The position numbers were made by a program, and so were the translations under genes. Below, piece by piece: positions 7,546 to 46,629 of a stretch of DNA of 64,000 nucleotides. The stretch is from Siniperca chuatsi (taxonomy: Eukaryota > Chordata > Actinopteri > Centrarchiformes > Sinipercidae), in NCBI RefSeq assembly GCF_020085105.1, contig NC_058063.1, positions 22,239,566-22,303,565 on the forward strand, given 5' to 3'. Every line of letters begins with the position of its first letter. The stretch's first letter is position 1. The notes below the pieces were generated by a model. The model saw only the letters and a program-made list of their open reading frames with translations, was not told the DNA's origin and did no database searches.

Positions 7546-7740
7546 GGTGAGTCTACTTTGGATTTTTCATGACAATTATTACTTTATTTAATTGCAGTGT
7601 GATTAAGGGCTATATAAATATAATATATGTATGTATATGTATATCTATAGTAGAGAAATACAGTCTGTGTTATACAGTTTTTAACTGTTTTGCTCCTGTG
7701 TTTTGACAAGCCACACTCCCACTTCATCTCCATCATCACC

Positions 7741-18153: not shown

Positions 18154-18347
18154 GTGAGTCTACTTTGGATTTTTCATGATAATTATTACTTTATTTAATT
18201 GCAGTGTGATTAAGGGCTATATAAATATAATATATGTATGTATATGTATATCTATAGTAGAGAAATACAGTCTGTATTATACAGTTTTTAACTGTTTCGC
18301 TCCTGTGTTTTGACAAGCCACACTCCCACTTCATCTCCATCATCACC

Positions 18348-21264
18348 ATGGAGTTGCTCAGTATTTCTCTCACACTCTGCACCCTTCTGACCCTGAGCCG
18401 AGCCTCACCGGTCAACTACACCATGTCCATGCACATGGGCCTCTGCGAGTACTTGATGCAGCACAGCCAAAACACTATCGGAGCATTCGTCCCGCAGTGT
18501 GATGCCGACGGGAATTTCCTCCCACAGCAGTGCTCGGGGTCGACCGGGTACTGCTGGTGCGTCAACGTCATCACCGGAGAGGAGATACCGAACACGAGCA
18601 CACCGCCGGGGGCCACACGTGTTAACTGTGGTGAGTGATGATGTGTGTGTGTGTCACATTTAGATGTTTGCAGTGGTAGAATGTGACTAAGTACATTTTC
18701 TCATGTACATTACTTAAGTGTACTTACACTTTAATTGAGTGTTTCCATTTTCTACTTTTGCTACTTTGAACTCCAATACATTTCAAAGACAAAAAATGTA
18801 CTTTTTTACTTCACTCTATGTATCTATTGATTAACAGCTATAGTTAGTAGTTACTTTAAAGATCAAGATTTTACAAACAAAACATATGACCATACCTTAC
18901 TTAAAGTACATTTTGCTGCTAAAACTTTTGTACTTTTAAGTAAAATTATAAATGCAAGACTTGGAGTATTTTTTTATAGTGTGTTATTGCTATTTTTACA
19001 TAAGTAAAAGCTCTCAATACACCAATACGTCTTTCTCCAACTGAGGTTACTTACTGTTTTTTCTTCTTGCTTATATATTTATACAGTATATTGGATAACC
19101 CAGTTATTAAACCAATGTTTTGTACAGGTAGGGCTACAAAATTATTACGAAAATAATCATTCATTTTGTGACAGTTTTCAAAATTATTACCACAAGAGTT
19201 TAGCTACACTTAAGCAAAATTTAATATGGAGTTTGGTGCCATCTGGTGGCAGTGTCAAGAATGGGACTTTAGTAAAAAATAAAGCATGATAGAAATTTCA
19301 TTTTTATATAAATAATTTATTAGATGCTGTAATCACATAAATGAGGTTACATTATAAATACAAGTTGCTTCAAATGTACAAACCTTTAAATCAACGTGAG
19401 CAATAAAATTAGGCAAGCTTTCTAAAACACATGTTCACACATAGTTGAATAAATACTGATGAATCAAAATGGGGATTGAAGTCATTAAATGATAAATTGT
19501 GCAGTCCGACTTGCAGGTCACTAAAATATTTACAATATTTTTCTGTAGACAGCTATTTCTACTGCCCCCACGGCTGGTCTCGCTTTGGCAAACGGTGCTT
19601 CATCTTCATCGACAGCCCGAAGACATGGGCTGAAGCCGAGGTAAGGAGCAAATGACATACTGATGACTTAGCTGCTCATACATCCAGTCATGTTGTAATG
19701 GATCAAATGTGGGAAAACTAATTCTTGGCTTGTCACCTACAGAATTACTGTCTGTTTGAAGGGGCCAACCTGGCATCAATCCACAGTGATGAGGAGAATC
19801 ACTTCATCCAGGATCTGACCAGAGGAGACTCCCACGACTTCCCTGAAACCTGGATCGGTGGCTACGATGCCATACATGTATGGAAATCTTTTGGTTTAGT
19901 CAATAGTATTACCTAACCCACTTCCAGATTCTGTCACTGTATTTTTTAATATACCCAAATCCCAACTCAACTGTCAGCTAGAGCACAATCAATACGGGTT
20001 AATCTGATATCAGCACTGATATTTGAGAATTATTATTACAAAATAATTTGTTGTTGTTACACAAACACTTTTTGAACAGTGAAATTCCCTGGAAATGAAA
20101 TTGTTATAAACTTCAAAACTACAAAATAAAAACTTTATTTGGTGCAATTAGGTACTATAAGAAAATGAACGAGTGCACCTTTTAAAGTATTAATGTGACT
20201 GATCATAATTAACCAGCTAAATCATTCTAGTAATTAGTTTATTTTTTCAAATTAATTGTCAGCCTTAAAATGTATCTATGTATGTATATATGTATGAATG
20301 TTTGTTCTTTCTATCCACAGGACTCTTTTTGGATGTGGAGTGACGGCTCCAAGTTTAACTACGAAAACTGGTACAAGGAGTACGAAATGGAGAAAACTGA
20401 GGACTGTCTGGAGATGAATCATGGATGTAATAAACTACACACACACACGCATACAAACTTTTAATATTCAACCTATTTCAATATTTCAAACCTGGAAAAT
20501 ATCACCCTAACTCCAAGTGTTGAAAAAGACGTTTGGATCGGGTTTCACACTATTGTATACTAATAATATTCTATAAGAATGTACTTAATGTTTTCTGACC
20601 TGAAGAAATACATCTTTTGTGGTCAGTAATCACCAAGCTGTATCAGAGTCAGATGGATCGGCACAAATGTGGACAGTTTAATCACTGTTCTTAAAGTGCA
20701 TGTACCATAGAAAAAACACAAATTAAACATCTCGATAAACTCATTCTTTTCTAAGAGAGGTGAATATATCATAGTATTAGCAGTCACAACCTGCTATATA
20801 CGTGTTAGTAGCTAATGATTAGCAATGAATCTAAGCCTGCTCTGTCCAAAGCCACCTATTTTTCTTCAAGTTATCACAACAAGTATTTGCTACATGCTCT
20901 GTCCCCAGTCTGTGCAGTACAACGCTTGATGTTCTTGGTTAATCTCGCTTAATTTATGCTAACTGTATGGTGGCTAATACTAAAGCTTCAGTGGTGACTG
21001 AAAAGGACATCAGAGCAGGAAAATATTGGATGTCAGTCACTAAAAATCAAGTCCTCATAGAAACGAAAAAACTGCCAACAAAAAAGCTATGCCAGGTCAA
21101 AATGGTAATTCAGTCAGAACATTAGAATATTACTAAAACCTGTGTAGGATCTGATATAAGGACCTGCTACAATCCACATTTTCTTTGTATTTGCAGTTGA
21201 GTTGAAGTGGAACTCTGACTCCTGCAATGAGACTCACCCTTCTGTTTGTGCCAAGATGATCTGA
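18348..21264 (+). CDS. Secreted thyroglobulin type-1 / C-type lectin protein, copy 2
   Basis: Coding exons are 18348-18630, 19549-19640, 19743-19877, 20321-20426 and 21197-21264. Exon lengths match copy 1 exactly, giving 227 residues. Domains are the same: signal peptide, six-cysteine thyroglobulin type-1 domain at 33-94, and C-type lectin domain at 100-227 without EPN/QPD or WND. Changes from copy 1 that I could see are M6I, N54D, G78E, P89T, and NI to YF at 97-98. Four of these lie in the signal peptide and Tg1 half, the last at the domain junction; exons 4 to 6 encode identical protein. No frameshift or broken splice site was seen, so both copies are probably expressed. Confidence 0.87.
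18670..19330. repeat. Copy 2-specific intron 2 sequence with interspersed repeat
   Basis: Bases 18670-19040 are rich in AAGTAC and CTTAAGTA phrases and resemble 25045-25170 and 55780-56140. This is a common type of teleost non-coding repeat. It replaces the 2.4 kb present at this point in copy 1. Confidence 0.65.
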
Positions 21265-23850: not shown

Positions 23851-26800
23851 ATGAAGACACTGCTGTTGCTGTATCTGTGTGTGTACGCTCTGTCTGCTGA
23901 GGATCCTGATAATCTGGAATATGACGACTATGACTCGGTGAGTGTGGTTGAGTGTGTTTACTTGAATAAAATTATAGTCAAATTATACAGCTATGGGTTT
24001 GAGTGTTTTTTTAAGTAAACATTATATAGTTTCAGAGAACAGGCAGATACCTATCTTTTATTTTTTCCTAAACACAAATAAAACTTAATGACACTGGTCA
24101 AAAAATGTATTTTATTTATCCAAATTTCACTTTTTGGTTTGTCTTTACACCCCAATATCAGAATGCAGATTTAAAGTGTATATTCATTACAATGTTAGAA
24201 AGAGCCTTCTTCAATTGTAATACTGATCACAACCAGGGTCAATAATTAAATATAATCATCTTTCAATTATATATGTATATAAATGGAATCGTAATGTGAC
24301 AATATGATCATAATGTGTTATTGTTTTACAAAATTATGTTGTTTGAATTAATGAATCCAAGCATATTTTTATAATCTAATTATAAGGATCTTTTTTACAT
24401 GTTTAAATTTTTTTTTATATAATGCATAACAATGGAACTCAAATCACGTTAATGCACTAACACACAACAGCATGGTATTCCTCACTCAGATTACATGTAC
24501 AGTAATAATACATTTGGTATGAGATACAGCTGTGTCATCTGCAGCACAAAAACTACATGGACTCAGTGTCCTCAACAGATAATGTAGCTTTTACATTTAT
24601 TACAAATGCAAGCTTGACAGAAGAAAGGATTTGAATCTTCAAATATATTCATAATAGTTTCCTATTGTCTTCCACAGGACAAGGGCTCATCTGCAAATAA
24701 TGGGACAGTATGTAGAATATGTTCAAACATTTGATTTATATCATGAATTATATTTTCATTTATTTTAATATTTTGTTATTTATTTCCTTCATCACGTCTT
24801 GTATCCCCGCAGGCGCAACCAGACACTGTGGATGCTCGTGGTCACCGTCCACTAATAAAGGGCAGGGAGACCTACAACCCTAGCCGCAATGCCCCGCCCC
24901 CTGTCAGCGGTGGCAGCAGGTACATTCATATACAGATACACGAAAAAGAAATAAAAGGAAGAAATAATTAAAGAAAAACCGACTATTAAAATGTATACTA
25001 ATGCAATATCAACAAGTATCATAAATGTAGGAGTAAAGTACAATATTTCCTTGTGAAATGTAGTGGAGTAGAAGTATAAAGGAGCATATACTGGAGATAC
25101 TCAAGTACCTCAAAATTGTACTTAAGTAAAGTACTTGTATAAAATGTACTAGTTACTTTCCACCAGTGCAAACAAACAAATCAAAAGTACCTGACTTCTC
25201 ATTGGAACAAGTCTACAGCCACGCTAGCAGCTCTGTGAGGCTGTACGCTGAGCAAAATGCTAACGTTAGCATGACAAAATGCTCACAATGACAAATCAAA
25301 CATGCTGATTTTTAGCAGGTATAATATTTACCATGTTCACCATCTTAGTTTAGTCTGTTAGCAAGCTAATATTCGCTAATTAGCAATGAATAAGAAGTAC
25401 AGCTGAGGCTGATGGGAATGCTAGTTTTGCAGGTATTTGGTCATAAATTTAAGTATTGGAAAAATTAAAATGTTGCCTTGATAATGACGCCAGATGAAAA
25501 GTTACTTGGTGACCAAAGTTATTACAATTCATCTTGAGGGGGACATGAATGTGTGTACCAAATTTTAAGGCAATCCATCCATTAGTTGTTGAGACATTTC
25601 AGTTGGGACCAAAGTGGTGGACCGACCATGCCGCTAGAATGGGTAAAAATTAGACATCACGGTGTCTCTCAGTGTGTCTGACATGTTAGTGAAGTGTCTC
25701 TTGCTTTTTGTCCAGGTATCGCGGCCGCCCCACCCCTGCTCCAGTCAGAGGACCACAGTCGCAGGAGAAGGAGGAGCAGCCTGAAGCTGGAGGATGCACA
25801 CACGCCTCAGAGGAGATGGTAGAAGGACCCAACCAGTGATTTTACATGTTTTAGCTCAGTAACTACAAACTCCACAGATGTAAATTTCTGCTGGCCGTTT
25901 TCAAAAGCATAGCATACATTTGTAGACTCTTTCCTTCTGGGAGGCCATTGGTTTCAGTTAATTTCAGGACGCTACAAAAATCAACAGGCAGGTTGATTTG
26001 AACATTTTTTGAACATTGACTAGCCATCATTATTTTGGTCAGGGTTATTGTTGCATGATAATGTAGTAATGAGCTGGGACTCTTTAGAAAAGTCCATTTG
26101 GTGGATTTAAGAAAACACAGCAACCCTTGTATTTGAAGAAACAACTAAATTCCCATAATCTCAAATCCAGATCCAAATCGAATCCAAATGTCAGAGCTTC
26201 TTTGAACAAAGAAAAGTTTTTAAAACAGTCTGTGCTTCATTTCTACCTAGTGATAACATTATAATGACTGATTGTGTGGGGTTACCTGTTTGCAACAAGT
26301 TTGCTAATTGATTTTCATACGTACATTTGAAATCAATGGCTGCCTAGAAGGGATCCCCCTTCTTTGGAAACTGGTCAGTGCTAATGTAAATATACAATAT
26401 TGGGCTAAAACATTCAAATTAACTAGTATGGTAAAGATAGAAAAACAAAAGGAAAATTCTTTTTTGGGATGGTGATTGAAAATCGAAAAGGAAAACAAAG
26501 AAAAAGAAAATGCATTTTAAACAACTAACCACAGATTTTCCCATCCACCAGGGTGTTTTGTGTCCCACTGGCTGCGAGCTGAAAACTACACTGCTGAAGC
26601 AAGAGAAGAACATCAAGATGGTAAATGGGGTTAAATGAAACCGATTTACTGAATTACTTTGAGTTCATTTGTATTTTCTGTCTTTTCAGAGCAACGCTTG
26701 TCACAAGAGAATTTGTAGGGATCACAAATTAAGCTGGTTTAAACCAATATGTTTTGTGTGAAAACTGCTAAAAATATAAATGCATAGAACGTATTACTTG

Positions 26801-29800
26801 CATTGTTGTCACATTGTCAATGAGAAAACATTGGGATTGACTGATCTTTTATTTATTTGTTACTGCATATATTTCTCACAGAGCATAAATCAACTCAAGC
26901 CTCAGGTGGATGATTTGTCACGATCCTCCAACAACGTCTACAACTACGTCAACAGCATTTCCAACTCTCTGAGGGAGAGGCAGAGAGTCGTCACTGGTGA
27001 GAAAAACCTGATGAGTTTTGTTTCATTAATCACAAGTTTTAATTAATGCAATCTTATGACTGTCACCCAATTTAATAGCCTTTCATGGCCACTTTTGTCA
27101 GATTATAATATTGTTAAAATTTTGTTTTAAAACATAAAATTTTGGGGAAAACATGCTCTTTACATAGAAAGTTTGCATTGCCACAAACTTTTTCAATCCT
27201 AACATTAAAATGAAATTACAACTTTGTGGTTTTGTGAAATTGTGTTATATGAAACAATTCTTAACAGCCATGTCAAAACTGTAAATGTCAAAAAAAGATT
27301 GCAAATAGTCTATTACAGGCACAGCATCCAGGTGAATTGGAACCTCCTTGCTAGCAAAAAGAAAATCAGTATTTTTATTGAAGCTTCTGATGCAAACAAA
27401 TCCACAAATAAAATAAAATAACATGGAATTATTCTGCACTTTAATTGTTTTGTACAATGTAAACATTTAGAAAAAGTTGAAATCCTCCCTCTTGCACTTC
27501 TCTAAGTTTTTTCTCTGCCTGTCCATCTCTTCCTCCTCTCAGACAACAGCAGGGTGGTCAGTCAGTACACTGATCAAGTGGAGGAACAACATAACTACAT
27601 CAAGGAGACGGTGGACACTGTTTTCCCTTCCAACATCAGAGTGCTACAGGTAAATAAGAACTGACATGAATCAAAAAGAGGAAACATTTTGTCAGTCAAT
27701 TTCATTTTAAAATGTTAATGTGGCAGTCATCCCTAATCACAGCCAAACTAAAATAGGAATTTATACAATACACAAACAAAACAAATGGCATCACTTGAAA
27801 GGGATCTACCAGAATCTAGTGCATCCAACCTTGATAACTACAAATACCCCTAATGTAATAATAATGTGCCATGGCTGCAGGGGATCCTGGACAAGATCAG
27901 GTTGAAGATCCAGAAGCTGGAGAAGGCCATCCAGGCCCAGAGGGAGGAGTGCAAGGAACCGTGCCAGACCAAATGTCCCATACCAGTGGTGTCTGGTAAG
28001 TGCGGGGCCTCCTAGAGGCTGCAATGTTCAATATACACCACAATATGAAAGTGTTGATTTACTTATTCTTGGAGCCTTACCATGAGAGGTGCTAACGTTT
28101 GTCCCAAGGGTGCAGCTAGAGGAAAGGTGCTGGAGTCATTAAAATCAAACAGGTTCATCCCCTGGGGAGCATGAGTGTGCTCAGAAAATGTTAAATGTGT
28201 GTGACAGATTAGGACATTTTGATCTGATGGTGGTGATAAAGAAAAGGTCAGGGGGTCACCAAAAATGTTAAGATTCATTCTGTGTGGATGATGAATATCG
28301 ATGCCAAAACAGTCAAACCATCGGACATAGCTATCTTTCAAATCAACAAACAAATCAATAAAGCAGATCATTATTTTTGACCCCAGAAGGTAGAACACAA
28401 AAGTAACTTTTGTAGCTTTCTTTGACGGATAACAATATAACAAATAACTTAAACACATCTGGGATATATCAGACACTTAAATTATTAATAGTCTGTATCA
28501 ATTCCAATACATATTGGTCTATCCTTGATACAATGATGTATATGTATCTATATGTACAGAAGTTTTTCTATGCTTAACTGTTCTCCTTTGTGATTCAGGT
28601 AAGGAGTGTGAGGACATCTTCCGTCGAGGAGGAACAGACTCCCAGATGTACCTGATCCAGCCCGACGCCTTGTACCCTCCATACAAGGTCTTCTGTGATC
28701 AGACCACCCAGAACGGAGGTGAGAATATAATTAAATTAGCCACCTACACCATTAAACTTTCATTTTTTGATTATTTAGTTGGTCTTTACTGTAAATACCT
28801 TGGATGTTTAGGCCTTTGGTAGAGATCTTTGCGTTTTCATTTTCCCAGGATGGCTTCTCATCCAGAACAGGCTTGATGGCAGTGTCGACTTTGGCCGACG
28901 CTGGGACGAATATCGACGTGGTTTTGGCAACATCGCATTCAAAGCTAGCAAGGGTCACTGTGAGATTCCCGGTAAGACTTTCAAAATATGAAACAAAAGA
29001 CTTTGTTGAAGAGAGCTTACCATTGGTATGCTGGATGGAAACCATTTCGTTATAAGACATGTCGCTTTAGCATTTATTAGTTTTGGCAGCTACCTGTATA
29101 TTCAATTCCACCATTATTCCTCTTATTTGTGGTTGACTAGCGTACCTTTCTCCTTTGTCATGTGACAGGTGAATATTGGCTGGGCAATGACCGCATTAGT
29201 CAGATAACCAAGATAGGCCCCACTGAGGTTCTCATTGAGATGCAGGACTGGACAGGAGCCAAGGTAAGTCCTCATGGTTTATATTTACAGCAGAAACGAT
29301 TAGTTGATCAACAGAAAATTCATCTGCAACTATTTTCATAATCGATTAAGTCATTTTTCAAGCAAAAATTCCAAACATTCTCTGGGTTTTTGTTCTCAAA
29401 TTCTTTGTCTTATTTAATAGTAAAGTGGATGTTGTTGGGTTTTGGACTGTTCGTCAGACAAACAAGCAATTTGAAGACACCGTTTTGTGGGCTATAGGAA
29501 ATTGTGATGGGATTTTTTGTCTATTTTCGGACATTTTATAGACCAAAAAAGAGACCCTATTTCTGAGTCAGTTTTGGTGTTGTTTTATCAGGGTTTAATT
29601 TCATTTATTTATAGGAAAACTCGGGTTCCTCAATTATTCCTTAACACATGTGATCGCCTAAAGAAATACTCCAAGCAATAAATGATTTACAGAATTTTGA
29701 ACAATCTAATGTCAAACCCCATTGAATGATGGTTCTTCTGACACCCTGTTTACTTTCATTCTGACTTTAAGCTGGGCTCCCTTATTGACTTATATTACAA

Positions 29801-30987
29801 TTTAAAACATTGGTATTGCTATGTATTCACATAATTAGCATTGTGGAGAATTAAACAATCAATGTTTTTGCTTGCTAAGATATGGTAAGTAATCGCCAAA
29901 TACCATGAGTAATCAGCACATCTGCCTTTTTCAAATTATGAATGTCTCAGTTTGAAATGAAACTCAAATGGTTTCTGCTGTCATTTAGGTCCATGCCCAG
30001 TACAGCCAGTTCACCATCCAATCAGAGACGTCCAACTACGTGCTGGCGGTCAACGGTTACTCCGGTAACGCTGGTAATGGTCTCCTGGAAGGATCCTTAG
30101 AACTCTTTGGTGTAAACCGCACCATGACCATTCACAATGGCATGATGTTCAGCACCTACGACAGAGACAACGACAACTGGTAGGTGTCCTGTTGGTTAGC
30201 ATGTTCACAGTATTACAGTTAAACCCAAAACATCTTGTAATTCATTTAACCAACAAGTCCTCCAAACAGACTGACAAAACATGTTACTCAAGTCATCAGA
30301 AACTCCTGTGTGTAATTGGGCTAAAATCTTTGCTGACTAACTCTAAAAGACTGGACTTTACTAGCCTAGCAACATTAAGGGTACAAACAACCCATAATGT
30401 AGCATTCACCGTACAAGCTGGTGTTACACCGTGGTTCTCTCCGTTCAAGAACAGTATCTGATGTTGGGAAGCTAATGCTAGCCAGCTGGGAACATGTTAA
30501 CATTAGTCAGTGGCGATCATGGTCACAATAGCTCTCAGGACAATAAGTTCACACAGTTTATTAAAGATTGATATTCAAGATCGCCAAATGTTGCCATTTT
30601 AAATGCTGGTGTGACCGGGCCATTAAACTGTATCTAAAAATAGCTCATAATGTTAGTAATTTACATGTGTGATGTGCTTTGCTTTCATGCATCATTTCAT
30701 GTCGGGTTTTTCATATATGTTCACACCTTTCTCAATCCCTGTTTGCCTGAACCAGGACCCCTGGCGATCCCGCCAAACAGTGCTCGAGGGAGGACGGAGG
30801 CGGCTGGTGGTACAACCGCTGCCACTCAGCCAATCCCAACGGGCGATACTACATGGGCGGAGCCTACACAAAGCAAATGGCCAAGCACGGCACAGACGAT
30901 GGCGTGGTGTGGATGAATTGGAAGGGGAGCTGGTATTCGCTCAAGGCCATCAGCATGAAGATCAGGCCTTACTTTCCCCCCTCATAA
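23851..30987 (+). CDS. fgb: Fibrinogen beta chain
   Basis: Coding exons are 23851-23937, 24678-24707, 24813-24919, 25716-25818, 26552-26620, 26882-26996, 27543-27649, 27881-27995, 28599-28718, 28849-28971, 29169-29263, 29989-30179 and 30756-30987. Phases agree throughout and give 497 residues (human about 491). The product is the plasma fibrinogen B-beta chain, secreted by liver. A signal peptide covers residues 1-16. Thrombin would cut after R48 to expose knob B, GHRPL at 49-53. The disulfide ring CPTGC is at 113-117, the coiled coil at about 118-229, and CKEPC at 230-234. The fibrinogen C-terminal domain (about 245-497) keeps [17 protein letters not shown] and GTDDGVVW, the calcium and hole-b residues. 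The fibrinopeptide (17-48) is long and acidic, with DDYDS, and part of it is coded by a 30-base exon 2. Confidence 0.97.
25045..25640. repeat. Interspersed repeats in fgb intron 3
   Basis: Bases 25045-25170 match the AAGTAC-rich family also seen at 18670 and 55780. Bases 25200-25640 match the family at 1380-1700 and 58915-59190. This fills most of the 0.8 kb intron between exons 3 and 4. Confidence 0.65.
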
Positions 30988-31273
30988 TCATGTCAGAGAG
31001 TGTCAACACACGCACATATAACACATAGAGGAAACCGCCAAAATAAAAGACACCAAAGTACAGTGTCCCAACAGGGTTTGGGGCCAAACTGAACCACCAG
31101 AACAGCTTCAAAGCTCATTGTAACGTTCAACTAATATTGAAGTGTTTCCTTTATTTTAGCTGTAACCTTTATGTTAAAGGTTGATGTACACACACATTCA
31201 CAACTAACACTGAGTCTGGGCGTGTGCTGTGAAAATGAAAAAGAACTGAAGAAGATGAAATCTGTTTCAAAAG

Positions 31274-31481
31274 AATAAAGCTCATTAAACTTACAAAAAA
31301 ACTAAAATAAAGAGAAATAAGAAATGGTTTAATGTCAGATGAACTGTCATATCTACAGATAAAGAGAAAAATCTTACTGGTTGTGAGTGTGCTGTGATCT
31401 GTCCTTCCTTGTTATATGAGACGTCTTCAGTGTGCACTTCTAGGACGAGTTGATGCCAACTGTCCTCCACTACTCAATAAA
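31274..31481 (+). terminator. fgb: Poly(A) signals of fgb
   Basis: AATAAA occurs at 31274-31279 and again at 31476-31481, giving 3' UTRs of about 300 or 500 bases. Which one is used cannot be told from the sequence. Confidence 0.6.
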
Positions 31482-31499
31482 CACTTTGAGGAACATACT

Positions 31500-32360
31500 T
31501 TCTGTCTGGTCTGGTTGTTATTTCACTGCACTACATGGACTATAGAAAAGAAAATGTACACACTACAGTATTTTTTACATCCCTGCTGAAGTGCTCTTAA
31601 ACAAGACATTAAATCCTTCCTGCTCCAGCTTGTCAAAATAAAAGAGACAAAACATATCATGGAGAAAATGCAAAGAAGCAAATTTGGTTTCAAGACAAGA
31701 ACTTACCACAGTAGTGCTGATCAATACAAGTGAAAATATGAATTTCAAAGTTTTGTCAAAGGAAACGTAGATTTAATTTTTGTTCATAAACCTGGTGACT
31801 ATAAACTATTTTGATAAGAACCGCAAGCAAAATAGGATTAGGGCTAGCAGAGGTAACAGAATTGTGCAGAACTGTTTTGCCTGAGCACGTTTTTATTAAC
31901 TGATGTATGACTATACAAATAACAAAATGAGTTAGTTATAAACAGAAATGACTGTACAGAATGCTGAAAGTAATTGTTTCTGTGCCTAATTATGTAGACA
32001 GTGAAATAAATAACAGGAAAAAACAGGACTGTGCTCTCAATGCATTCAGGGCTAATATTCAAATGTGTCTAGTTATTAAACAAAGGTAGTACAAGCTATT
32101 GCCAACATGCAGAACCAGAATAATGCATGTATAAAATATAAAATCTAAGATTTTTGTCTGAAGTTCATGTTTGGTTGACAAATAAGATAGGTAATAGGTG
32201 GTTCAGAGAATGACTACAACATTTCAAGCTTTACCTTTAAAACAACACAAGAAGATATTACAATTTGTAAGATACAAGTTGTAACATGTGATAGATGGTG
32301 AGACTCACTTTCTGTAATGGCCCCATAAATTGTTGTACTCATACAGTATTGTGCTGTTTT
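31500..32360. other. Intergenic sequence between fgb and the alpha-like gene
   Basis: AT-rich, no coding signal or clear repeat. The two genes converge here, with poly(A) signals about 0.9 kb apart. Confidence 0.5.
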
Positions 32361-32363
32361 CAC

Positions 32364-32369
32364 TTTATT
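32364..32369 (-). terminator. Poly(A) signal, alpha-like gene
   Basis: AATAAA on the minus strand 140 bases after the stop codon at 32510. Confidence 0.6.
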
Positions 32370-32509
32370 TTTCTTTAAAATTGATTTCAGTTTTTTTTTT
32401 TAATGTTTATGTTGGCTGTAGAGGTCGAACGTTCACGTGAAATGTGTTTGAAAAATCCAGACTACCGGCAAACACTGAACACTGTCAACCCTTCCCTAGT
32501 CGAACCCTT

Positions 32510-34481
32510 TCATTCCAGCTCTGCAGGGTCGAGAGCCTCCGCATCTGCAGACTCCTCCAGAACTATCTGGTTCTGTCCGATGTCCTCAAACAGGGTCAAC
32601 AGTTCTCTCTGGACCATGGGAATGGTCTTATACTCTGCTGACGGTGCCGGACCCACATCTATATGCTGCAGCTTGATATGAGGGATGTCTTTAGGAGGCG
32701 TAGCAGCCTTCCTTCTCTGGGTGAGAGTCTTGTCCATCTGGTCCATGTCAGTTTGAAGCGTTTGATAGCTGGGATGATCAACGCTGAACACTAATGCCAA
32801 CCGGCAGGACCCGTGGCAGGCTCGCAGCTTCATGTCAATGTCCACCTGGTGACGTAAGCAAGACATTAGCAACAAGCAGCAAACACAACATTAACACATT
32901 ATTCCCTTATGAAGTTAATATGGTGGACTTGTCAGCAAACAGTTGCCTATTTATACATTCAGCAGCAACATTATGATCCCACTGGACTGGTGTTTGTGTC
33001 CACCTGGTGAATGTAAGTCCAATATTCACTCTCATTTTAGCTTTATTTTGGTCTCCAGCGGCTCCTGAGAAAAATATCTGGCTCTTTAGCTGCTAAATGC
33101 TCCACTATGTTCACCAGCTACTCGCTAACTTTGTCTGCCTGCCGTTTAGTGCTGGGCAGGTAATGTGAACAGCTGCCTGCTGCTGCTGGAAAGGAAGTTG
33201 GTTCGAGTGATGAGACTAAACAAAAACTGTAAAGTTACGGACCGCAAAAACCAAAACAGCTGAAAGCTGAAAGACACTAAAACGCTCTGTAGAGCTGAGA
33301 GCAGTCAGGCGATAACTCTCTGTTGGTTTGGTTTAACATAACAAGCATAATATACTCATTACCATTAGATTATGAAAAAAGCATTGTATTGTTGAAAACA
33401 ACCTCACCTCTGTTCGGTACAAGTCCTCCATTTGTTTCTGGACGATGCGGCGCAGCTCCTCGAGTTGCTGCGACATCCCAGACGATCGTTTCCGTAGTGA
33501 CGTCAGGTTCCTGGCCAATCCTTCGGCATGTTCCACAAACTTCAGCTCGGACGCTGGAGACAAATACATTATTAATCAGTCAGCATTACTTTAATCATTC
33601 TGTCTTTATTTACCAAATACATAACAAACATAGTCAGTGAGTCATAGTCAGCCTCACTGTATCTGTTGACTATGTCTCTCCGGTTGTTGTTGTAGATGTG
33701 TGCTGTCATCGTCATGGACTTCTCAGCTGCGTCTTCGTACATCTTTGCTGTCTTACACACCTTCCTCAGTTTCCTCTCCACCTCGCTCTCCATCTGTGAG
33801 ATCAAACCCTGGAGTCTGCAGCCAGATGGGCATTTAGAAACCTTTGGAGAAGAACGCAAGGGTTTACAAGTGTATCTGAGAGTGGCCCAGGTAGGTACAT
33901 CCGCTTGCCGATATATTGGAGCAACAGTAACTTTGTACTAAATGTCTGCCATGTGTTATAAATTGGATTAGAATACAGTCTGGAATACAATGAACAGGAA
34001 GACAGAAATTTTGTATTTTCTTTAATTGATAGTTTTTTATCTAAGAGGGAAACTTAATTAGCAGCATGGATATAAAACATTGAATCTCAAGAAGACATCG
34101 CTGCATATGTCTGTAACTCCACTTGATGAAACTCTCTCGGCCCTCAGGTATTGTTTCAGTTCATGTTATTTGAGGATTAATTCTGCATTTACTGGCAAAG
34201 CATATTCACATATTCTGAATTACTTTCACACACAGAGAAAACGAGGTTATAACTAAAGCATTGTGTTTTAAATAAAAAACTATTAAGTGTCCATTTTTAT
34301 ATGGGATATGAAGTGCAGCTGGGTGTGTGTGTGTGTGTGTGTGTTTGCATGTTCCTCACCCAGTCATCATCTGAACAAAGAGCGACGTCTGATTTCGCTC
34401 GACAGCGTTGCTTCCTGTACGTCTGGGTGTGCCTGGGAGGCTGTCGGCCATCTTGATTCTGCTGCTTCAGCCTCGTACACA
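32510..34481 (-). CDS. Short fibrinogen alpha-like chain (coiled-coil only), 5' exon not found
   Basis: Exons in coding order are 34481-34360, 33841-33658, 33553-33408 and 32845-32510. Joins keep frame and give 261 complete residues, starting mid-codon, so a first exon is missing. Family features are RCRAKSDVALCSDDDW (compare the fga phrase before its ring), ring motifs KCPSGCRLQG and ACHGSCRL, and a helical segment between them. The middle exons are 184 and 146 bases, exactly the lengths in fga. Where fga has Arg then GARPV, this gene reads DGRQPPRHTQ, so no clear thrombin-exposed knob. It stops soon after the coiled coil, without alpha-C or alpha-E. The last exon is continuous where fga has an intron. 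It could be a functional paralogue that enters or modulates fibrinogen assembly, or a decaying copy; intact splice sites favour function. Confidence 0.75.
34322..34344. repeat. (GT)n microsatellite
   Basis: Eleven or so GT units, 16 bases past the donor of the alpha-like exon that ends at 34360. Confidence 0.85.
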
Positions 34482-34489
34482 CTGCAGAC

Positions 34490-36530
34490 AAACGAAAAAT
34501 AAACAAAAAAGCAGAACTGCGCAACAGTTCACCTTCAACCAACTGAGATCTAATTCAAACATGACATTGCAAAGATATTTGGCAGTTGTGTTGTAAGTGT
34601 TTGTATTCTGTCACTGATCTGAAGTTTAGACAGGACAAAGTGTTCTGTTGGTGTTCAGTTTTAGTAGACGGCTTAAAAACATTGTGATTTGTTGCTAACA
34701 TTATTCTCTGATGGAAACTGGACTCAAATCCAACATGAATGCACATTTTATGTTCTGGCCTGAAAATTCACTGACCTCTTCCTCTCAAACTGCTTTTAAT
34801 GATTTGTTCTCATCAAAATAGGATGAATCTTTCTTCTACTTATGACTTTTATTTCATTTTATGGCACTTTTCTAACGGCAACAGTCAACGTAATTTTACC
34901 TCTGTGAAAAGAATTATCAAAGTTTGTTTAAAAACAAGGCAACAACATTATCAACTGGGCAAAGTGGGCTTCTGCCTCTGACCTGTGTGGCAATGAGTTT
35001 GTGGTGATTTGATTCATTACAAATTTGATGCACTAAAGCACAATATGAACTGAATTGCCGCTATATGTAGTCTGCTGTTTGTGCTGTGCGTGATGGCTAT
35101 TTAAAGGCAACAGGATACATACATACCCACAGCTCACTTTTGCCCTGGAACCCCCTAGCGGGTTATTCTGGTCCTGATACATAGAAATTGTAGGTAATCA
35201 TTTGTTAGTTTGTGTGAGCATAAGATAAATATTAGATTCCTTTCAATGGCAGATTTCTCTGAAATTTGTATCACATTCATAAAAAAACATACATGACAAA
35301 ACATTCAACCAGACAACAAACCATTATTACAAACATTTGTACTACAGTCATATATTCCCTACATGTAGCTGCAGCGCAATCAGTTTCATCGTTTGCTTCA
35401 AAATGTAGTGCTAAAGCTACACAGGCAGCTCACGTCAACGTCAAATCCTTATATGAATATGTTAAAATGGTAAAATGTGGTAACTTACTTCTGTCTTTAC
35501 TGTACTGTAATTTACTGGTAACATAATGTAAAATTCTTGCCAGATTGTGTTTGTAAAACAATTTTTCCAGGTTGGGACAAATTAGGTGAATTTTGACAAA
35601 TGTAAAAGTTGTGTTACATGTAGGATGTATTTGTATTGTAACGTGAACTGGTGGCTGCTGAAGATAAAATGTTATTTTTAAAAATACTGTTTTATATTAA
35701 ACATGATTAAATACAATTGATTCTACAGTCAAAGACAGATTTGTTAGATAATTACACCTTATGATCATCAGATGTTTATTTCAATAAACTTTTTATTTTA
35801 ATACGTGGCACTTTCTCACCGGATGATTTCAGTCACTGTGAAACACATTAGTAAACTGCCTAAAAATACATGTAAACCTCTTGTAAGTAATAATTCGTCC
35901 TAATGTCTGTCAGAAAATAACAAATTCGGTAAATATTTCATGAGGGTCAAACTTTACTCCTCGGCTCTTGGGGACAGTTAGGCAAATTTTTAAAAATCTA
36001 AAAGCTGAATATGTAAAAATAAGTTTATTTATATGGCGCCTCTTTAGAGCAGATGTCACAAAGTTCTTCACAATAGAAAATAAAAGCAAGACATAAAATA
36101 TCTGACATGCTAAAGCCAGACAGGTGATCTTTATTTGAATTTCGATCACTTTGTAGAGATCTGTTTTCATTTTGATATTAAAGAGTTTTTTTGTTTATTG
36201 GTGTCAAAAAAAGCCACATTTTTGTTTTTCAATGTTGTAAAATACCTACCTTAAAATACCTTTTGACTGTTTTAATAGACACTGTACATTGAACATAATT
36301 GATTCTATAGTCAAAGACAAATTTTTAGGATGAGCTCTTAAGATAATTCACAACTTTTCTAATATATTTTGTAAACTTTGTAACAATATGGTAGGTATTT
36401 TGAAAAAAAAGGTCTTTTAGTGCAAAAATTTACATGAAAAAATTATTATAAATTATTATAATCCGATTTTTTTTTTAATTATTTGTTACTTAGACTTAAA
36501 TAACACCAGAAACCACGGTAGCTGAAGTGA
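34490..36530. other. Region upstream of the alpha-like gene, first exon expected here
   Basis: No signal-peptide exon was found in the phase the next exon needs (one base left over). A TATA-like TTTAAATA lies on the minus strand at 35095-35102. Two similar AT-rich segments of about 60 bases occur at 35688-35750 and 36268-36335, sharing ATTGATTCTA and AGTCAAAGACA. Otherwise nothing is recognised. Confidence 0.35.
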
Positions 36531-36540
36531 ACATTGAATC

Positions 36541-36546
36541 TTTATT
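36541..36546 (-). terminator. fga: Poly(A) signal of fga (alpha-E form)
   Basis: AATAAA on the minus strand, 446 bases past the fga stop codon. Confidence 0.6.
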
Positions 36547-36991
36547 GATTGAGCAGAGTTCAGTCATTGCTCTGTACAGAGTTGAGCAACAGGGAAAACA
36601 CTGTGGAAACATCAGGTCGTTCCAAGAACACTGTTTAGATAATCCTAACAAACAGGTCAATGACATTTACACAAAATGCTGACAAGAATAGAAGAATCAA
36701 CAAAAATACTCATGGCGACACAGTGACACTGTTTGACATGATTTTGAAATCTCAGAATGATTTACGAACAGATCAACAGTCTCAAGGTCTGAAACCGACT
36801 TTGATTTTTGGCCTCAAATATTTCTCTGCAGCTTCAGTGTGCGCTTCTGTTTTTCTTTATGTCTTATTTCGTGCTGTTGTTTCTTTGTACCTGTTGCATA
36901 TTTTGCAACCAAATTTTCTTAGGGTTTGAATACGTAAATGTATATAAAGGTGTATATTTTATGTTATTTGATGATTTTCCCCCTTGTCCTA

Positions 36992-39900
36992 TTAAAAAGC
37001 AGCTGGTCGGATAAACATCCTAACCGTTTTCAGGCTGTAATTGGCCGGTTTATACGTCGCCCACACAACTCCGTTTTCAATCTCATACGGTGTGTTTTTC
37101 TCCGGGTCGTACGTGCCTTTATAATAAATCCCATTCAAGTTAGCTGACTGACAGTTGTTGTACCACCACCCGCCCCCATACATTTCTGCGCAATTCTCCT
37201 CCCACTTGTCATTGTCTTTGTCGAAGGTGCTGAATTTCATTCCGTTGTGGGACAGGTAAGACGCCATATCAGACTTAGGTATCACCAGAGCGTCCCCAGC
37301 ATCCCCAGTGTACCCGGACACATGCAGCGGGTACCCCTCATCCTCCGAGCCAACCCTGATTGTATACTCAGCACTGGCTTCGCCCCCTTCCCAATCCTCT
37401 AGCTCGACCTTTAGCATGGTCTCGCCCTGATTAGTCAATAGGTGGAGGTTCTGGTTGCCTAGCCAAAACTCCCCCTTGCCCTTCGCGTCGACCAAACCGA
37501 ACCCGTTGCGGTATTCGGCCCAGGTGCGGTTGAAGCTGAGCGCACCACTCTCTCTTTGCTGGACTAACAACCACCCGCCCATCATCCCCTCCTGCTGGCA
37601 ATAAACTTCCACTACCTCTATGGAGTCTGTGCCGCCGGGTTTGATCTTAAACAGGCCGTTCGTTTCCCCTTTCAGGTGGTTCTGGTAGGCTTCGACACAA
37701 TCTGCGAACAGAGAGGGGCAAACCGCAGACCGCGAGTTAGCTTGGACTGGCTTTGGCTCGAGTAGCTGAAATTAACTGCCGTGATAGAAGCAGTAACAGT
37801 CACTTTCCCCGCAAAATGGCTAACACTTGCCCCATTTAAACCCCTTCGCCAACCTATTTTTGTCAATCTGCTTTTGGAGCATCAGCAGGATGTTCCAAAA
37901 CGCAGATTGAGTTTTATGATTTTTATTTGGTTGGTGGCTCCTGAATTATTATTTTTTTAGATGGGTGGGCTTCTGTTGGGGGAATTTGGACTTGTTTAAA
38001 AGTTAACTTTATTAAATGTATTCGTCAAGGAATATGTACAAAAAACATTGACATCAAACAAGAGAAAAGACTACTTCTACTTTCCATCTGCAGTCCCTTA
38101 ACGCAACCTTGAGACCCCTGATAACAAGCAAATTCAACTCTTTGGCTCTGATAGCGCACTTATGACTGGAGTATTTTAAGCTAACAGTCACTTTCACTGC
38201 AAAATGGCTAACACTTGTCTCAAATAACTCAACCCATTTCTGCCAATCTGCATTTGAAATGTCAGCAGGACTTTACATTTCTATCCAGTTTTTTGGCGTT
38301 TGCGATTTGGTACAAAGCAAAAACAGCCCTAAAAGTTCCTCATAGTCTTTAGTTTCCAAACTGTTTCTTGGATTACACAATGACCCAAAATACTTGGTAA
38401 CAATCAAATACATCACACTGAATGTTCTAGCAAAACAATTACAATTACTGTGTTCACGTCATATTTTTGGTACATAAGGCTAGCTAGCAAGCTAGCTGAT
38501 GCTAAAGCATGCTGTCTAGCTGAATGCGCGTTCTGGCCTTTCCATATTTTACTCCAGGTCTGATGTTTTTGTACCTTTTCCTATATAATCGGCGTGCCGC
38601 TCGGTACGCGTGCTCTTCACACTCCGGGCGTGGAAATCAGGAAGGTCATCCTCTGCATTGTCCGTCAAGAACCCGCCGAGATCGAGCCCAACTTCAGTGC
38701 CGAATGGATCCCCAAACCCAGTTTTGGAATCTCCTGTGAGACTTCCCTTGGCGCTACTGGCGTGTACGGTCTTGGTGGTCACAGAAGAAGAGGAGGAGGA
38801 GGAGGAGGAAGATGTGTGGCTGAGGCTTGGGAACAAGGAGCTCATCCCTCCCTTGGTGAGGCCTGTCATGGCTTGGCACTCGGGGCCTCCCTCTATCACC
38901 TCCTCCATCCTTTCCACCGGCCCCTCCTTTGTGTGGACGACAGTCCTCCTGATGCTCTTGGTGCAGGAGACACTTTTGGTGGACACGTGGCTTGTACTGG
39001 GCTGGCTGAAGCCTTCAAACCCTCCGCCCAAACTAAAGAAATCGCCGTTGCCGTGTCCTCTGAGCTCAGTGATGGATTTAGATGATGTGGAGGAGGAGGA
39101 CGAGCCGGAGGAAGCGGAGGAGGTCGATGATGAGGATGTAGATGGAGAGTAGGAAGTACCTGGGACCTTGGAGATGGTTGCTGGGGATGAGCTGGAGCCT
39201 TCCTCCTCTAGGACCAAATGGACTGTCTTAACCTGAGAAAGAAGAATGAAGAATAACTTTAGCATGAGTGTGCATGGTTCTAGAAAAGACGGTGTAATGC
39301 GTGTTTTTGTCCTGATGACAATAAAAAGAAACAATGATGTTATTTCTAGCCCTATGATACCTTGAGTGAATTATGGCTAGCACTAGTCCAGTTATTCCTG
39401 TCACTGAACCAGTGAGCGTTAGCAAGTATTTTGGGAAATAAACGATGTGAGAACACAAACTGTGTGATCATACCACTGCCTTCTACTACCGAAGGATGGG
39501 AGGACGACCTGGAAAAGTGGCTTCAGATCACAGTAACAAACTAAGTTAGCTTATGGTTAGTTAACTGATATGTGACTTTGAGGCTCACTCTTTTAATAAA
39601 AAGATGCCTGCCTTTATGACAACGCAAATGTTGATCGGTAGCAACAGAAATAATAAGCTAAATATTATAATAATGATTGTCCTTCCTTCCGTCAGTGGTA
39701 GAAGGCTGAGGTATGATGACATTATCCATTTTAAGGTATGACAGCTTGTGTTCCCAAATCAGTTATTTCCCAAAAATCTCAAAAAAAAAAAAAGGGACGA
39801 CACCTGTACAGCTAACTCTCGCAGATGCTGGCTCAGTGAAAGGAATAACTGGAAGCTATGCCCATAATTCACACATGGTATAAGAAGGATAAGAATAAAT

Positions 39901-42900
39901 TATAATTTTATGACATTACACTAATTAGGCAGATGATTTATAAGTCCATTTAGCCTACATAGGAAGAAGATAGACAAGAGCTAGATATTAGCATATGAAA
40001 TACTCTTTAAGGTGTGTTAGGACTGAACAGGAAGTGAATGCATCCATGCAAGTTATAAATATTCCAACCTCCCCAAAAGACTCACACTTAACCTGAATCT
40101 GTACAACTCCAATTCATGAATGTACAGAGACAAGAGGACAAAGAGGACAGGGCCAGTGCATACTTTAATAACTAGCTAGCTTACAGCTACAGCTAACTTC
40201 TGTTCGTGGGCAAATAAACACAGACTGAGAAAACACTGCAGTAAATAAAACAAGGTGAAAATTGCTTTACGTTCAGTTATGCACTTTTAGAGGTGTCAAA
40301 CCGGTAACAACTTCAACAACGTTGTTGCACGCCATGAAGTCTTAATGTCACATGCGCAGGAGCAAAACGAAGAAACGAAAATGAAGAAACCAAAAATTCC
40401 CACACACTGTCCATCACTTGTATTCACTTTTAAAGGATATTCACTATTCACTATTACAGGATAAGTCTGCTTTTTTATTTCTTAATGTCAATAAATCCCA
40501 TGAAAAGAAAACCAAAAACCAACAATGACGGTAGTTAACTAAGTATTGTTTGTGTATCCAAAGCCAGATATATCTTTTTCATCTGTGTCATAGGAATGGG
40601 TGACATGTTCATAAAATTTCCATGAACACACACTGTAGTTAATTTTGACTCAATCCCACATACACCGTCCTGCTGTCCCAAATATTCACTAGTGCACCAA
40701 ATGCGGATTAATCCACTGCTGAAAATAGTCCCCAACAAATGCACCATTTCCTCCTGGCCAGGTGTTTTAGGAAATTACTGAGCCTTTTTAAAAAAAGGAA
40801 ACTATATATTTGTGAGCCATTTTTAACCCAATGAGCTTGGGGCTGAGAGCTACAGACAGGGTAAAGAAGTCTGAAAATACTGAGAGACGGACTAACACAA
40901 TGTTGGTTTTGGTCTTTTTTCATGGGCTTTGTTGACAATGACAAAAATACAGAGTAGCACCAGCTGTGTCCTTAAACAACGTCCAACCTTCACTAGGTAA
41001 AATTCATGAATGGTAATTCACTTTCATGGGGTAAAAAGTTTGCGGGATTAGTTTGGTGCCTTCACAGTTCAAGACCTGTCAAACCAACATGTGTCCCTCA
41101 CCTCAGGGAACAAGTCTGCCTTCTGCTGTCCTGCCATACTGCCCTCGACATTCTTGGACTTGAAGACGCTGTCCACCGTGACACTCTGCAGCGGCCTGCT
41201 CTTCATCACGTACAGCGTCCCCACAGTCTCAATGTTCTGGGCCGAGTGGGAGTCCAGTTGATTAATCTGGGAAACGGACAGAAAGAGAAATAATGCAAAC
41301 CCAAAGCTGTATCAAAACTATGAGAGAAATCTGGTTAAGCATCTACACAATCCAGTGTAGATTTGTTTGGATGCCTGGTGTTTAACCCTCTAAACTTGCA
41401 GTTTTTTATACATTATTTTTATAAATGGCCCATGAACCATAATATGAAATAAGTGGATAAAACCTGTCACATGTAGATATTCTGACTTTTTAATGGTTAC
41501 ACAACAAGCTTTTACCACATCTCCCAATTTATTTTTGTCAGGTTTATGCATAAAGTTTTGTCACCTAAAATGAAAAATGCATTATTTTTATTTTTAAAAG
41601 ATAAAGTGAAATTGCATTATTACCTCCTTAATGTGATGTATTTGCTGTTGAAACGGGACATTGTAAACCAGTGGGACGAGATCACACAAAATGCTGAACT
41701 ATTACTATTCCTTTAAATATACGTGTTATATTATACGGAAATATACGTGTGACTATACAGAATTGGACTGAAGCACCACAAAGGTGCAGAATGCAAATTT
41801 CAGTCCATTTAGCGGGTATGGCTGTTGAGCTTCAACCAAAATTATACAACAGCATTAGAGGTGAATTTGTGCTGGGAAACAATTATGCCGGACATTACTT
41901 CTTTAGGTTTCTATAAGATAAAACATACCCTAAAATAAGACTGTTTAAATCATCCGATAATCTATATACACAACTCTTAAATCTCAGAATTTATTGCCAC
42001 AAATTTAGCCACACGTTCCTTTAATAGGCTTAAATTAAGGAATTCACTTTTAACTCCCCTTAAAGTTACTTAACCCATGCAAATTTTACCTTAATCTTAA
42101 TATGAGCAATTGAAATGGCTTTGATTAAAGACTTTCTGTTGGTAGTCAAAGTCAACAAAAACTGCAAAGATGACCTTGGACTCCCCGGAGTTAAACAAGC
42201 GTCCCAACCTTTTTGACCAAATAGTCCCAGGAACTAAAAGTCCCATTTGATTGTTTGTGTGTCCACTGCAAATTAGACCGATAGTTGAGTTTACACTGAC
42301 AGCAGCGTTTGAGACACAGTTGTCTTGTGTAAGGAAACAACAACACATCATCGTGTTAACATGACTGTATTACTTGTCACAGATGTTTGAATGGATGCAA
42401 ATGAGGCAATTTAGTTTTTTCGTTCTCTCACTTTGGACTCTTGATCAGCAGTGTGAATAAACGTTACCCAAATTGTAGCAGCCGCGAGTTTTGTGTTTGT
42501 CGAAATGCGGGTAATGTTCTTATGTTCATTAAATGGTCCTGAGTGTGGGGTGCGGTGGAACCACAGAGTTAGGACCTTACCTGTTTGTTCAGTGCCACGT
42601 AGCTCTCCTGGTCCACCTGGTACTCTGAGTAGCCTTTGCAGGATCCTTTGCAGGAACGGAGCTTGATATCGATATCCACCTGACAGAGGAGACAAAGAGT
42701 TGGAAATATACTACCTGTTTAGCAAATGAGCGTGTTTACATGCAGCAACTCTGCAGACATTTTGAAAGTAAATCAACTGATAGGCCAGGCTACAGCCGCG
42801 TTAAATATCTGTGTACATTTAGTGAACAAATGAAAGTTGAAACATCTGTTCTGCCCTACAAAGGCAAAACGCAGTAACTACATATTTGGTCAAAACTGAC

Positions 42901-45900
42901 CTGAATCAGACTTTTTGACATCTGTTTTATGGTATAAATATATTATGGCAAAGAAATGTATAATTTCTGTGAAAACAGCGTTTTTAACTTACGGTTACTA
43001 CAAAACAGAGCTAAAAACCAAACTGCACTCTGGCTGTGTAACAAAAGAGAGTTACATCAAGTGAAAGCTAGCTGGTAAGATAGCTTCGCTTAATGTTAGC
43101 TGAAGCTAAAACTAAATTTATGTATTGATTTTTCCCTAGCTGTTAACTGTAATTGTAAGTGACATCCTGGTAATTCAGTTTGTTATTCCACATAACTAAA
43201 TGAGAAAGTCATTAAATCCATTAATGATGGAGAAAAAACCTGGTAAACTCCTGCTAAAGCTAACTAGCTTAGTAGATCTCAGCTGCCATCTCAGCTTTTG
43301 ACTCAGTGAAAATCATGCATTTGGTGTGCATTTAAGCTACCTTTAAATTACACATTTAAATGTATTAAATTGTAAAATTAGTTTATTATATTGATCTATA
43401 GAGAATACATTTAATTTATATAAGCTATGGTCTGTAAATAATGGACACTGGCATATTTTGTTTGGAGATACTGCATCTTTAAGAGCAGTATCTCTTATTA
43501 TGTAGGTTCTATGGCAATGATGTTTTAGGGCAAAATAACCAGCCTAAAGACTTAAATTAAGGTATTACAAAATCTTTATCTGTTAAGCACTTTGCCAGCT
43601 AGCCTAAAAAAATGAACAGCCTTTATTCTTGGCTTATGTAGTTACTGCCGTCAGCCTTTGTAATTCTGAGCTTCTGTGACATTCAGAAAGCGTACAACTG
43701 GGGGGTTAGCTGTACACTGAGTATGAATAAATGCAAATATGTATTTTTGTCTCTATTGTGTCTCCGTACCTCCAGCCTCTGCATCTCGACAACCTGGTCT
43801 TTGACTCGATCCTTCAGGGCGCCCAGGATTCTCAGCTGTCTGTCGATCTTGATCTTCAAGTCTGTGATTCTCTGACGCAGACTCTGGGCCAAGTCGTAGT
43901 AGTTGTTATCATTACCTTGTGGAAGGAGGAAGGATGCATTTGGATGAATTGATAGATCAAATGATATACAGGCAGGCAGATTGACTGATACTTACATTTA
44001 GACTTTATTTAATTCTACGTCAACATTGAAAATGAAGCATAAAAATCCAAGATGAGTCGACGTGCCTCTTGTATTGTTTTATTGAGTCTGGATCTAAATG
44101 ATCTTCGATCTTAAAGGCAGCCTGTGGAGTTGACCACTAGTATCACTATGGAGCAATGTTTATGTGGGTCCCCGTTTGTGTCGTGCAAAAGCTCGGCTTT
44201 GCAAATGTTTTATGAGGAAGCAAATGCACTCAACATGTTTGTTAAACCTAAAGAATACACAGAAACACAGTGAGAAACACTAAATGTAACTTGTAAACAG
44301 GAAAACTCCTCAGGGCACCCTTAAGTTGTTGGTCAGGTGCTGAGTCAAAGACTGACTGGCCATCAAATGCTTGGTAGAGAAAAGGAAGCATACACAAACA
44401 CAAACTAACCAGCTTCAAGGATGAGTTTCTCCTTGAGGAAGTCGTAAGTCTGTTTGGACACCTGGTCAGTGGAGCGATGCTTGACCCTGTTCTGATCCAG
44501 GAGGCTGCGGATCTTCTCGATCTTCTTCAGCAGGCTGTGGTCGTATTTATCCATCAGACCCTGGATCCTGCAGCCCGACGGGCATTTAGAGCCCTGATAG
44601 AGGATGGGAGAGATGGGTGGGAGAAAGAGATGCCTTAACCTCAGAAGCTTTTGCTCGTTACTTATTTTAAGCTTCACGTAAAAACACTGTAATTCACTCA
44701 CAACATCTCACACTGGATTAAAAAAAATGTATCAATGATAATCTTTACTATGTAATTATAAACACACATCTGCATCTTAAGGTACAGCAAGTGTTTTTGG
44801 CTGCTGAAAGAAATCATGAAGATTTTGGCTCTGGAAAAAGTGTGTGTCAACTGATGGGATGAACTAAGGATGGACTAATAAAGCCGGGAACAAGCTGTAC
44901 CCATTCATCGTCTGTGCAGAAAGGCCACTCTCTCTGAGTGGCACATTTATCGGCTCTGGTGCCTTGCTCCACCGGACGAGCTCCTCTGGGGTCGACCACT
45001 GTAGCCTGGAGACAGAGACAGAGAGGGGGGCAGAGAGAGGGTTTACGTCTCCTTTATAAGTCTAAGTGCAGACGTTCAGAGCCCTTTTCTTCATACATGG
45101 ATAACAAAAGTGCAGGTATTTTATTGGCACCAATAGAAAAAATATTGCCATTTAAAATTTTAGTATATTTTGTCTAATTTAGTTTTGTGTACCATGAGAA
45201 AAATAAATATATTAAACCAAACATTTTTTGATGGGGATTTGTCAAACAAGTATCATAAGTATAAATTGTTTAAAGCTTCACTGAAACAATTTCATGAGTT
45301 AGGGGGTGCTATTTCCTGCATTTAAATACATTTATATAAATCTAGCAAATACTAAATTATGATGAGATTGATGTTCGACCCCAGCATGTTTTTGGAGAGT
45401 GATAACGGTGAACAAAAACACAGTGAATTATTATTTTATTACCCGCAAAACATGCAAAGGAGGTGGAAGTACCTTTCTAGAACAGATTACAAAGTGTGCC
45501 ACAGAGAAAAATAAAGTCAAATAACATTAACTGATATTATATTTCAGTGCTTTTCAGTGTGTGTGTTGTCTGATTTTATTGGGTTGCAAGCACTTTGCAA
45601 GTTTGTTTTGAAAACTACTATATTTATTTAGATATTATTGTTGTTGTTTTTATCAACAAAACTGCTAAAAAGGCAAGAAAATGGTCAAATTAACTGACAC
45701 AAATAGGTAATATAAAATTCTAAAACATAAAAATGACAAGAATTGCAAAAATAGCTTCTAAAAATACATTTTGAAACGTATTGTTGTGAATAAAGGTCCC
45801 ATCATTTCAACAAAATACATCAGTTGCAGTTTGTAAAATGTTTTAACGTATTAAAAGTGTCATTGTGATCTGACTCACCAGAGCTGAAGCCACACAAATC

Positions 45901-45935
45901 AAACCGAGACAGACGAGTAAATTGAGTCGTTCCAT
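36992..45935 (-). CDS. fga: Fibrinogen alpha chain, alpha-E form
   Basis: Exons in coding order are 45935-45879, 45005-44901, 44593-44410, 43915-43770, 42679-42581, 41266-41102, 39232-38575 and 37701-36992. The frame is open throughout, giving 707 residues. It is the plasma A-alpha chain. A signal peptide covers about 1-18. A short fibrinopeptide ends at R26, with knob GARPV at 27-31. The disulfide ring CPSGC is at 58-62, the coiled coil at about 63-173, and CKGSC at 174-178. Residues 253-471 are a Ser/Gly-rich alpha-C region in which C342 and C371 match the alpha-C hairpin disulfide of mammals. Residues 472-707 are a fibrinogen C-terminal domain like human alpha-E ([26 protein letters not shown]). 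Reading through the exon 7 donor adds eight codons then a stop at 38549, which would make a common alpha form. Confidence 0.95.
38008..38013 (-). terminator. fga: Candidate poly(A) signal for the short alpha transcript
   Basis: AATAAA on the minus strand inside the last fga intron, about 540 bases after the read-through stop at 38549-38551. It fits a transcript that ends before the alpha-E exon, as for the main mammalian alpha mRNA. This is inferred from position. Confidence 0.4.
38786..38812. repeat. fga: Trinucleotide run coding a poly-serine tract in fga
   Basis: GAG/GAA repeats on the plus strand read as serine codons on the coding strand (residues about 393-402 of the alpha chain). Length polymorphism is likely. 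Confidence 0.8.
42711..42843 (+). repeat. Inverted repeat arm inside fga, near exon 5
   Basis: About 133 bases nearly identical to the reverse complement of 46496-46629. This arm lies in the intron only about 30 bases upstream of fga exon 5; the other arm lies 560 bases upstream of the fga start codon. Confidence 0.9.
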
Positions 45936-46495: not shown

Positions 46496-46629
46496 TTTCA
46501 ACTTTAATTTGTTCACTAAATGTACACAGATATTTAACACTGCTGTAGCCTGGCCTATCAGTTGATTTACTTTCAAAATGTCTGCAGAGTTGCTGCATGT
46601 AAACACGCTCATTTGCTAAACAGGTAGCA
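46496..46629 (-). repeat. Inverted repeat arm upstream of fga
   Basis: Partner of 42711-42843 in opposite orientation. Both arms end sharply at CTACCTGTTTAGC and near AAAGTTGAAA. It could be two copies of one dispersed repeat or an inverted duplication. Confidence 0.9.

Follow-up and report, generated by a model that had tools for sequence, protein, structure and literature searches.

The window analysed here is a 64,000-nt stretch of contig C22 in the 718.8-Mb genome of Siniperca chuatsi, and it contains two fibrinogen genes with a third, shorter one between them. On the plus strand, fgb occupies 23851–30987 (the first nine exons were joined and translated, and the remainder to the stop codon was read by eye), and on the minus strand fga occupies 36992–45935 with eight exons, seven of 57, 105, 184, 146, 99, 165 and 658 nt and a last one that encodes the C-terminal fibrinogen domain (Fibrinogen_C E 5.5e-69). 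The fga gene has its own AATAAA at 36546. The short fga-like gene lies between the two, on the minus strand as fga does, at exactly the coordinates (34481–32510) given in a sequence-only reading of this DNA. A gamma-type fibrinogen gene is found on a different contig from fga and fgb (C3:9103500–9123000); those of its exons that were read, the signal-peptide exon and the exons with both rings, are open. An ORF near it resembles LRAT, a gene that adjoins FGG in human.

Several other features are present in the window. A 132-bp inverted repeat, 97.7% identical between its arms, has its first arm within fga intron 4, immediately ahead of exon 5 (42711–42842), and its second upstream of the first fga exon (46496–46627). 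On the plus strand, two near-identical ORFs at 7654–8031 and 18261–18638 each encode a thyroglobulin type-1 repeat (E 4.6e-17 and 2.9e-17) and sit within a tandem duplication whose segments are about 93–96% identical; near these copies an open frame at 5841–6677 (plus strand) carries an RVT_1 reverse transcriptase domain (E 5.6e-18). C2H2 zinc fingers occur in a 468-aa open frame at 50524–51930 on the minus strand.

The exons of the short gene measure 122, 184, 146 and 336 nt, are separated by introns of 518, 104 and 562 nt, and join into a single open reading frame, 261 codons followed by TGA. AG precedes all four exons, GT follows the first three, and exons 2–5 show no stop, frameshift or broken splice site of the kind that would mark a pseudogene. 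Exon 2 (34360–34481) opens with QQNQDGRQPPR and continues to the counterparts of human Cys28 and Cys36, with no knob; exon 3 (33658–33841) encodes the CPSGC of ring 1, the coil's first part and an additional Cys that lies 21 residues past ring 1; exon 4 (33408–33553) encodes the second part of the coil, including an NLT sequon; and exon 5 (32510–32845, including the TGA) encodes ring 2 (VDIDMKLRACHGSC) and a 97-residue tail. The extra Cys and the sequon (33841–33408, minus strand) are both missing from the matching part of fga. A possible polyadenylation signal, AATAAA at 32364–32369 (minus strand), lies about 140 nt past the stop and is a consensus match only. When splice sites are scored with textbook matrices, the strongest exon 2 acceptor is at 34481 (score 5.6, the next best being −0.1), and the exon 4 acceptor is the weakest of the four (−1.2). 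Exons 3 and 4 have exactly the fga lengths, 184 and 146 nt in both genes as had been pointed out earlier, and the intron phases after exons 2–4 (0/1/0) are the same in the short gene and in FGA.

The relationship to fibrinogen alpha is seen at several levels of comparison. The 256-aa spliced chain matches the Fib_alpha profile at 73.4 bits (E 2.8e-20, gathering cut-off 29.9), and a Fib_alpha search of the whole genome returned seven matches: C3, fga and fgb contributed two each, and the seventh was exon 3 of the short gene (31.3 bits). The control set gave one match, which fell below the cut-off. Used as a query against its own genome, the sequence of exons 3–5 gave four matches at E up to 1: the three exons themselves, each at E 1.7e-22 or below, together with fga exon 5 (E 0.42). 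Only the best candidates were scored in this search, so that the description of the gene as single copy is valid at that sensitivity. The prokaryote contigs scanned gave no relative. Exon 5, compared with sequences of solved structures, gave 10 matches at E up to 1, all of them fibrinogen alpha entries or fibrinogen, the best being chicken alpha (E 6.2e-6, query residues 1–99).

The alpha-chain disulfide rings are retained, as the sequence-only reading had it, with all six cysteines present in the short chain, and the distance from ring 1 to ring 2 is 112 residues without an indel, the same as in fga and in the human, bovine and chicken alpha chains. Across the coil, the short chain is identical to fga at 33 of 121 positions, to chicken alpha at 31, to bovine alpha at 39 and to human alpha at 36, and outside the alpha family identity is 16/121 with beta and 14/91 with gamma. 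A seven-row tree groups it with fga and the chicken, bovine and human alpha chains, apart from the fish's own beta and partial gamma chains (support 95/94), although its branch is long and the tree does not fix the branching order inside alpha. The short chain keeps 33 of the 52 columns that are invariant in fga and the chicken, bovine and human alpha chains; among the 19 changed columns are the Arg of the thrombin site, the Gly of the knob, and W61 and P62 preceding ring 1 (the Trp-Pro ahead of Cys36). Where fga departs from a residue common to all three tetrapods (23 sites), the short chain has the tetrapod residue at 5, the fga residue at 3 and neither at 15. By descent the short gene is an alpha chain, most probably an old fga paralogue.

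The constraint on its coding frame can be judged from substitutions and composition. Over 139 codons compared with fga, pS is 0.74, which is saturated, and pN is 0.49. A recent partial copy of fga can be ruled out, both from this saturation and from the blastn matches (E up to 0.01), which span only 38 and 45 nt in exons 3 and 5. GC3 is 0.63, compared with intron GC contents of 0.36, 0.33 and 0.41, and G or C fills 162 of the 257 third positions (p 4e-16 for an expected rate of 0.38). No stop interrupts the coding frame, while the other two forward frames contain 12 stops and 11; under an order-2 Markov model of this sequence the mean is 8.0 stops, with at most one stop in 0.35% of 2000 runs. 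The heptad signal of the short chain peaks at a period of 3.55, as in fga, the chicken, human and bovine chains and fgb, and none of 1000 shuffles reaches it; the middle third of the coil has a weak signal of 1.35 (1.46 in fga). The kept cysteines and their spacing, the GC3 of 0.63 and the saturated synonymous sites together indicate that the gene was kept as coding sequence for a long time.

Absent from the short chain is the knob through which alpha chains polymerise. It had been claimed that no knob stands ahead of the first ring, and this is borne out: where fga has DPR/GARP (DPR/GARPVEQ), the short gene reads DGRQPPR (DGRQPPRHTQ). Aligned at the knob site without a gap the short chain presents QPP, and with a gap QPPR falls opposite RGAR; neither begins Gly-X-Arg, and G[PAHVS]R does not occur in any of the three minus-strand frames of 34700–34360. 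The short chain has no knob A of the Gly-X-Arg type for thrombin to expose. The knobs of the neighbouring genes are in place, with DAR/GHRP in fgb, and the fga knob (45005–44901, minus strand) is Gly-Ala-Arg, compared with Gly-Pro-Arg in chicken, bovine and human. Since the fga knob is encoded in exon 2, an ordinary signal exon would bring none to the short gene, and a 5' exon that supplies a knob to the short chain is unlikely. Splices from fga exons 1–2, 1–3 or 1–4 to the following exons of the short gene are in frame.

The 5' end of the gene is less clear. Exon 2 has no in-frame start codon, and no credible signal-peptide exon was found in 34482–36990, where three starts pass the donor and hydrophobicity limits against a background mean of 2.98 per 2.5 kb (50 window stretches, both strands). 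The best candidate, 35351–35293, ends in phase 2 and is unfit for the strong acceptor at 34481, which calls for phase 1; fga intron 1 is in phase 0. A hydrophobic reading from 34562 (MFELDLSW...) lies within the T-rich acceptor tract in a frame that differs from that of the ring cysteines, and joining it would require a 68-nt intron and a weak acceptor. Starts of this kind turn up often, in 44 of the 838 ORFs that begin with a start codon and are at least 20 aa long, and we judged this one to be due to chance. Exon 1 of fga was also ruled out as the signal exon of the short gene, as a stop appears at codon 24 once it is joined to exon 2. TATA-like words are present in 34482–37000, and no HNF1-like site within three mismatches was found there; weak ones occur in fga and fgb.

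At the other end, the chain terminates shortly beyond the coiled coil, 97 residues beyond the last ring-2 cysteine, which agrees with the sequence-only reading, and the sequence that follows (31001–32509) gave no fga-like match better than E 1.8 and no alpha-C region. The related claim about the alpha-C crosslinking features stands in part: alpha-C is almost wholly gone, but a Gln aligned with chicken KQMQVVLE is kept, and from this alignment not all crosslinking features of the short chain need be lost. The human counterpart of this Gln is presumably Gln221, a factor XIIIa site. Exon 5 of the short gene is in one piece, while fga is interrupted there by two more introns. Mammalian FGA is undivided at this position too, and thus the two-intron split may be fga's own.

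The reading that we prefer, by analogy with fibrinogen variants described below, is that the product of this fga paralogue can join beta and gamma chains without donating knob A and would hence cap or weaken fibrin, and we give it a probability of about one half. That such a chain could assemble yet not donate the knob had been suggested before, and the anatomy agrees as far as it goes, with the cysteines, coil length and heptad signal kept and the knob absent. A chain of about 250 residues would be secreted, and its six conserved cysteines, which correspond to human Cys28 (alpha-alpha), Cys36, Cys45, Cys49, Cys161 and Cys165, would pair it with beta and gamma, while the Cys28 counterpart might link it to a normal alpha half-molecule and so give mixed dimers. 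Fibrinogen containing the short chain would then be bound by the knobs of other molecules through its beta and gamma globular domains; since it would have no Gly-X-Arg knob A for thrombin to expose, none would be offered in return, and protofibrils would be capped, slowed or weakened. It counts in favor of this mechanism that the partners are at hand, with intact fga and fgb adjoining and the fgg coil exons on C3. The missing signal exon, the phase mismatch and the absent HNF1-like site weigh against it. The changed invariant columns, including W61/P62, and the weak heptad signal in mid-coil do so as well, and the extra cysteine could disturb folding of the chain. We consider more tentatively, as possible but rather doubtful, that the chain is a dedicated and naturally evolved polymerisation terminator, which would enter fibrinogen, partly as mixed dimers, and set clot size and ease of lysis.

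The coding constraint that fits a chain capable of assembly would be the same if the gene works but its product no longer takes part in clotting. The secreted coil would then act as a scaffold, either in a different tissue or with different partners, perhaps by way of the extra cysteine. The loss of both the knob and alpha-C fits such a product, and the extra Cys and NLT sequon set its coil apart from that of fga. This seems unlikely to us, however, because every cysteine and the coil register needed for beta/gamma pairing have been kept, the seven Fib_alpha matches in the genome belong only to fga, fgb, the C3 gene and the short gene itself, and no other partner is known.

It is also improbable, though the 5' region lends itself to the idea, that the gene was recently silenced, for instance because the promoter or the first exon was lost, and that exons 2–5 have not yet decayed. 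Start candidates at background frequency (3 against 2.98 per 2.5 kb), phase 1 in place of the phase 0 of fga, the lack of an HNF1-like site upstream and the weak exon 4 acceptor are all consistent with silencing, but those four exons are free of damage, GC3 is still 0.63, an AATAAA is present, and short first exons are easily overlooked. The in-frame joins from fga raise a further alternative, in which exons 3–5 or exon 5 act as alternative end exons of fga and read-through produces a knob-bearing alpha chain without alpha-C. The joins from fga exons 1–2, 1–3 and 1–4 indeed stay open until a stop at codon 276. Such an arrangement is nevertheless very hard to credit, given that fga has its own AATAAA at 36546, that the short gene retains an exon 2 with counterparts of Cys28 and Cys36, and that fga exon 1 spliced to this exon 2 meets the early stop noted above.

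If the gene is expressed, a chain that assembles without donating knob A would be a possible natural brake on clotting and might serve as an inbuilt limit on how far clots grow. The alpha chain builds fibrin with knob A and alpha-C, and engineered and patient variants show the effect of losing either; a separate gene that has the assembly region and neither of these two would amount to a natural experiment on the requirements of alpha-chain assembly alone. Alpha C-terminal regions vary among vertebrates, with lamprey and bird alpha chains differing in length. Among the literature matches listed (titles and abstract openings, with subscription journals and annotation records outside the scope), there was no published description of a knobless short alpha gene. 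The "fga-like" of turbot carries substitutions at residues 537 and 574, so that it must be a long chain, "fibrinogen alpha chain-like" is named in the pipefish and trout literature, and the zebrafish plasma literature names one fga. Automatic annotation may already label the short gene "fibrinogen alpha chain-like".

Compared with vertebrate FGA, the short chain shares the Fib_alpha coil, the six cysteines, the 112-residue coil, the exon lengths of 184 and 146 nt, the 0/1/0 phases and a site beside fgb and fga. It differs in having no Gly-X-Arg knob, alpha-C or alpha-E, and in one extra cysteine, and it is about 25% identical to the adjoining fga. The chicken alpha chain of solved structure has RGPR, whereas the short chain has no knob. 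A further comparison is the alpha-220 fibrinogen, cut at alpha residue 220, whose polymers grow only to a limited extent and give stunted fibres and weak clots that lyse easily (PMC8553339); this recombinant human chain is engineered and keeps knob A, whereas the short chain is encoded by a natural separate gene and lacks it. The absence of an engaging knob A is instead shared with fibrinogen Detroit (A-alpha R19S) and recombinant Double-Detroit, the latter with knobs A and B both dead and no association after thrombin (PMC7186824). Double-Detroit is without knob B too and is thus not an exact analogue, and the Detroit change is a point change in a full-length chain, unlike the short chain, in which both the knob and alpha-C are gone.
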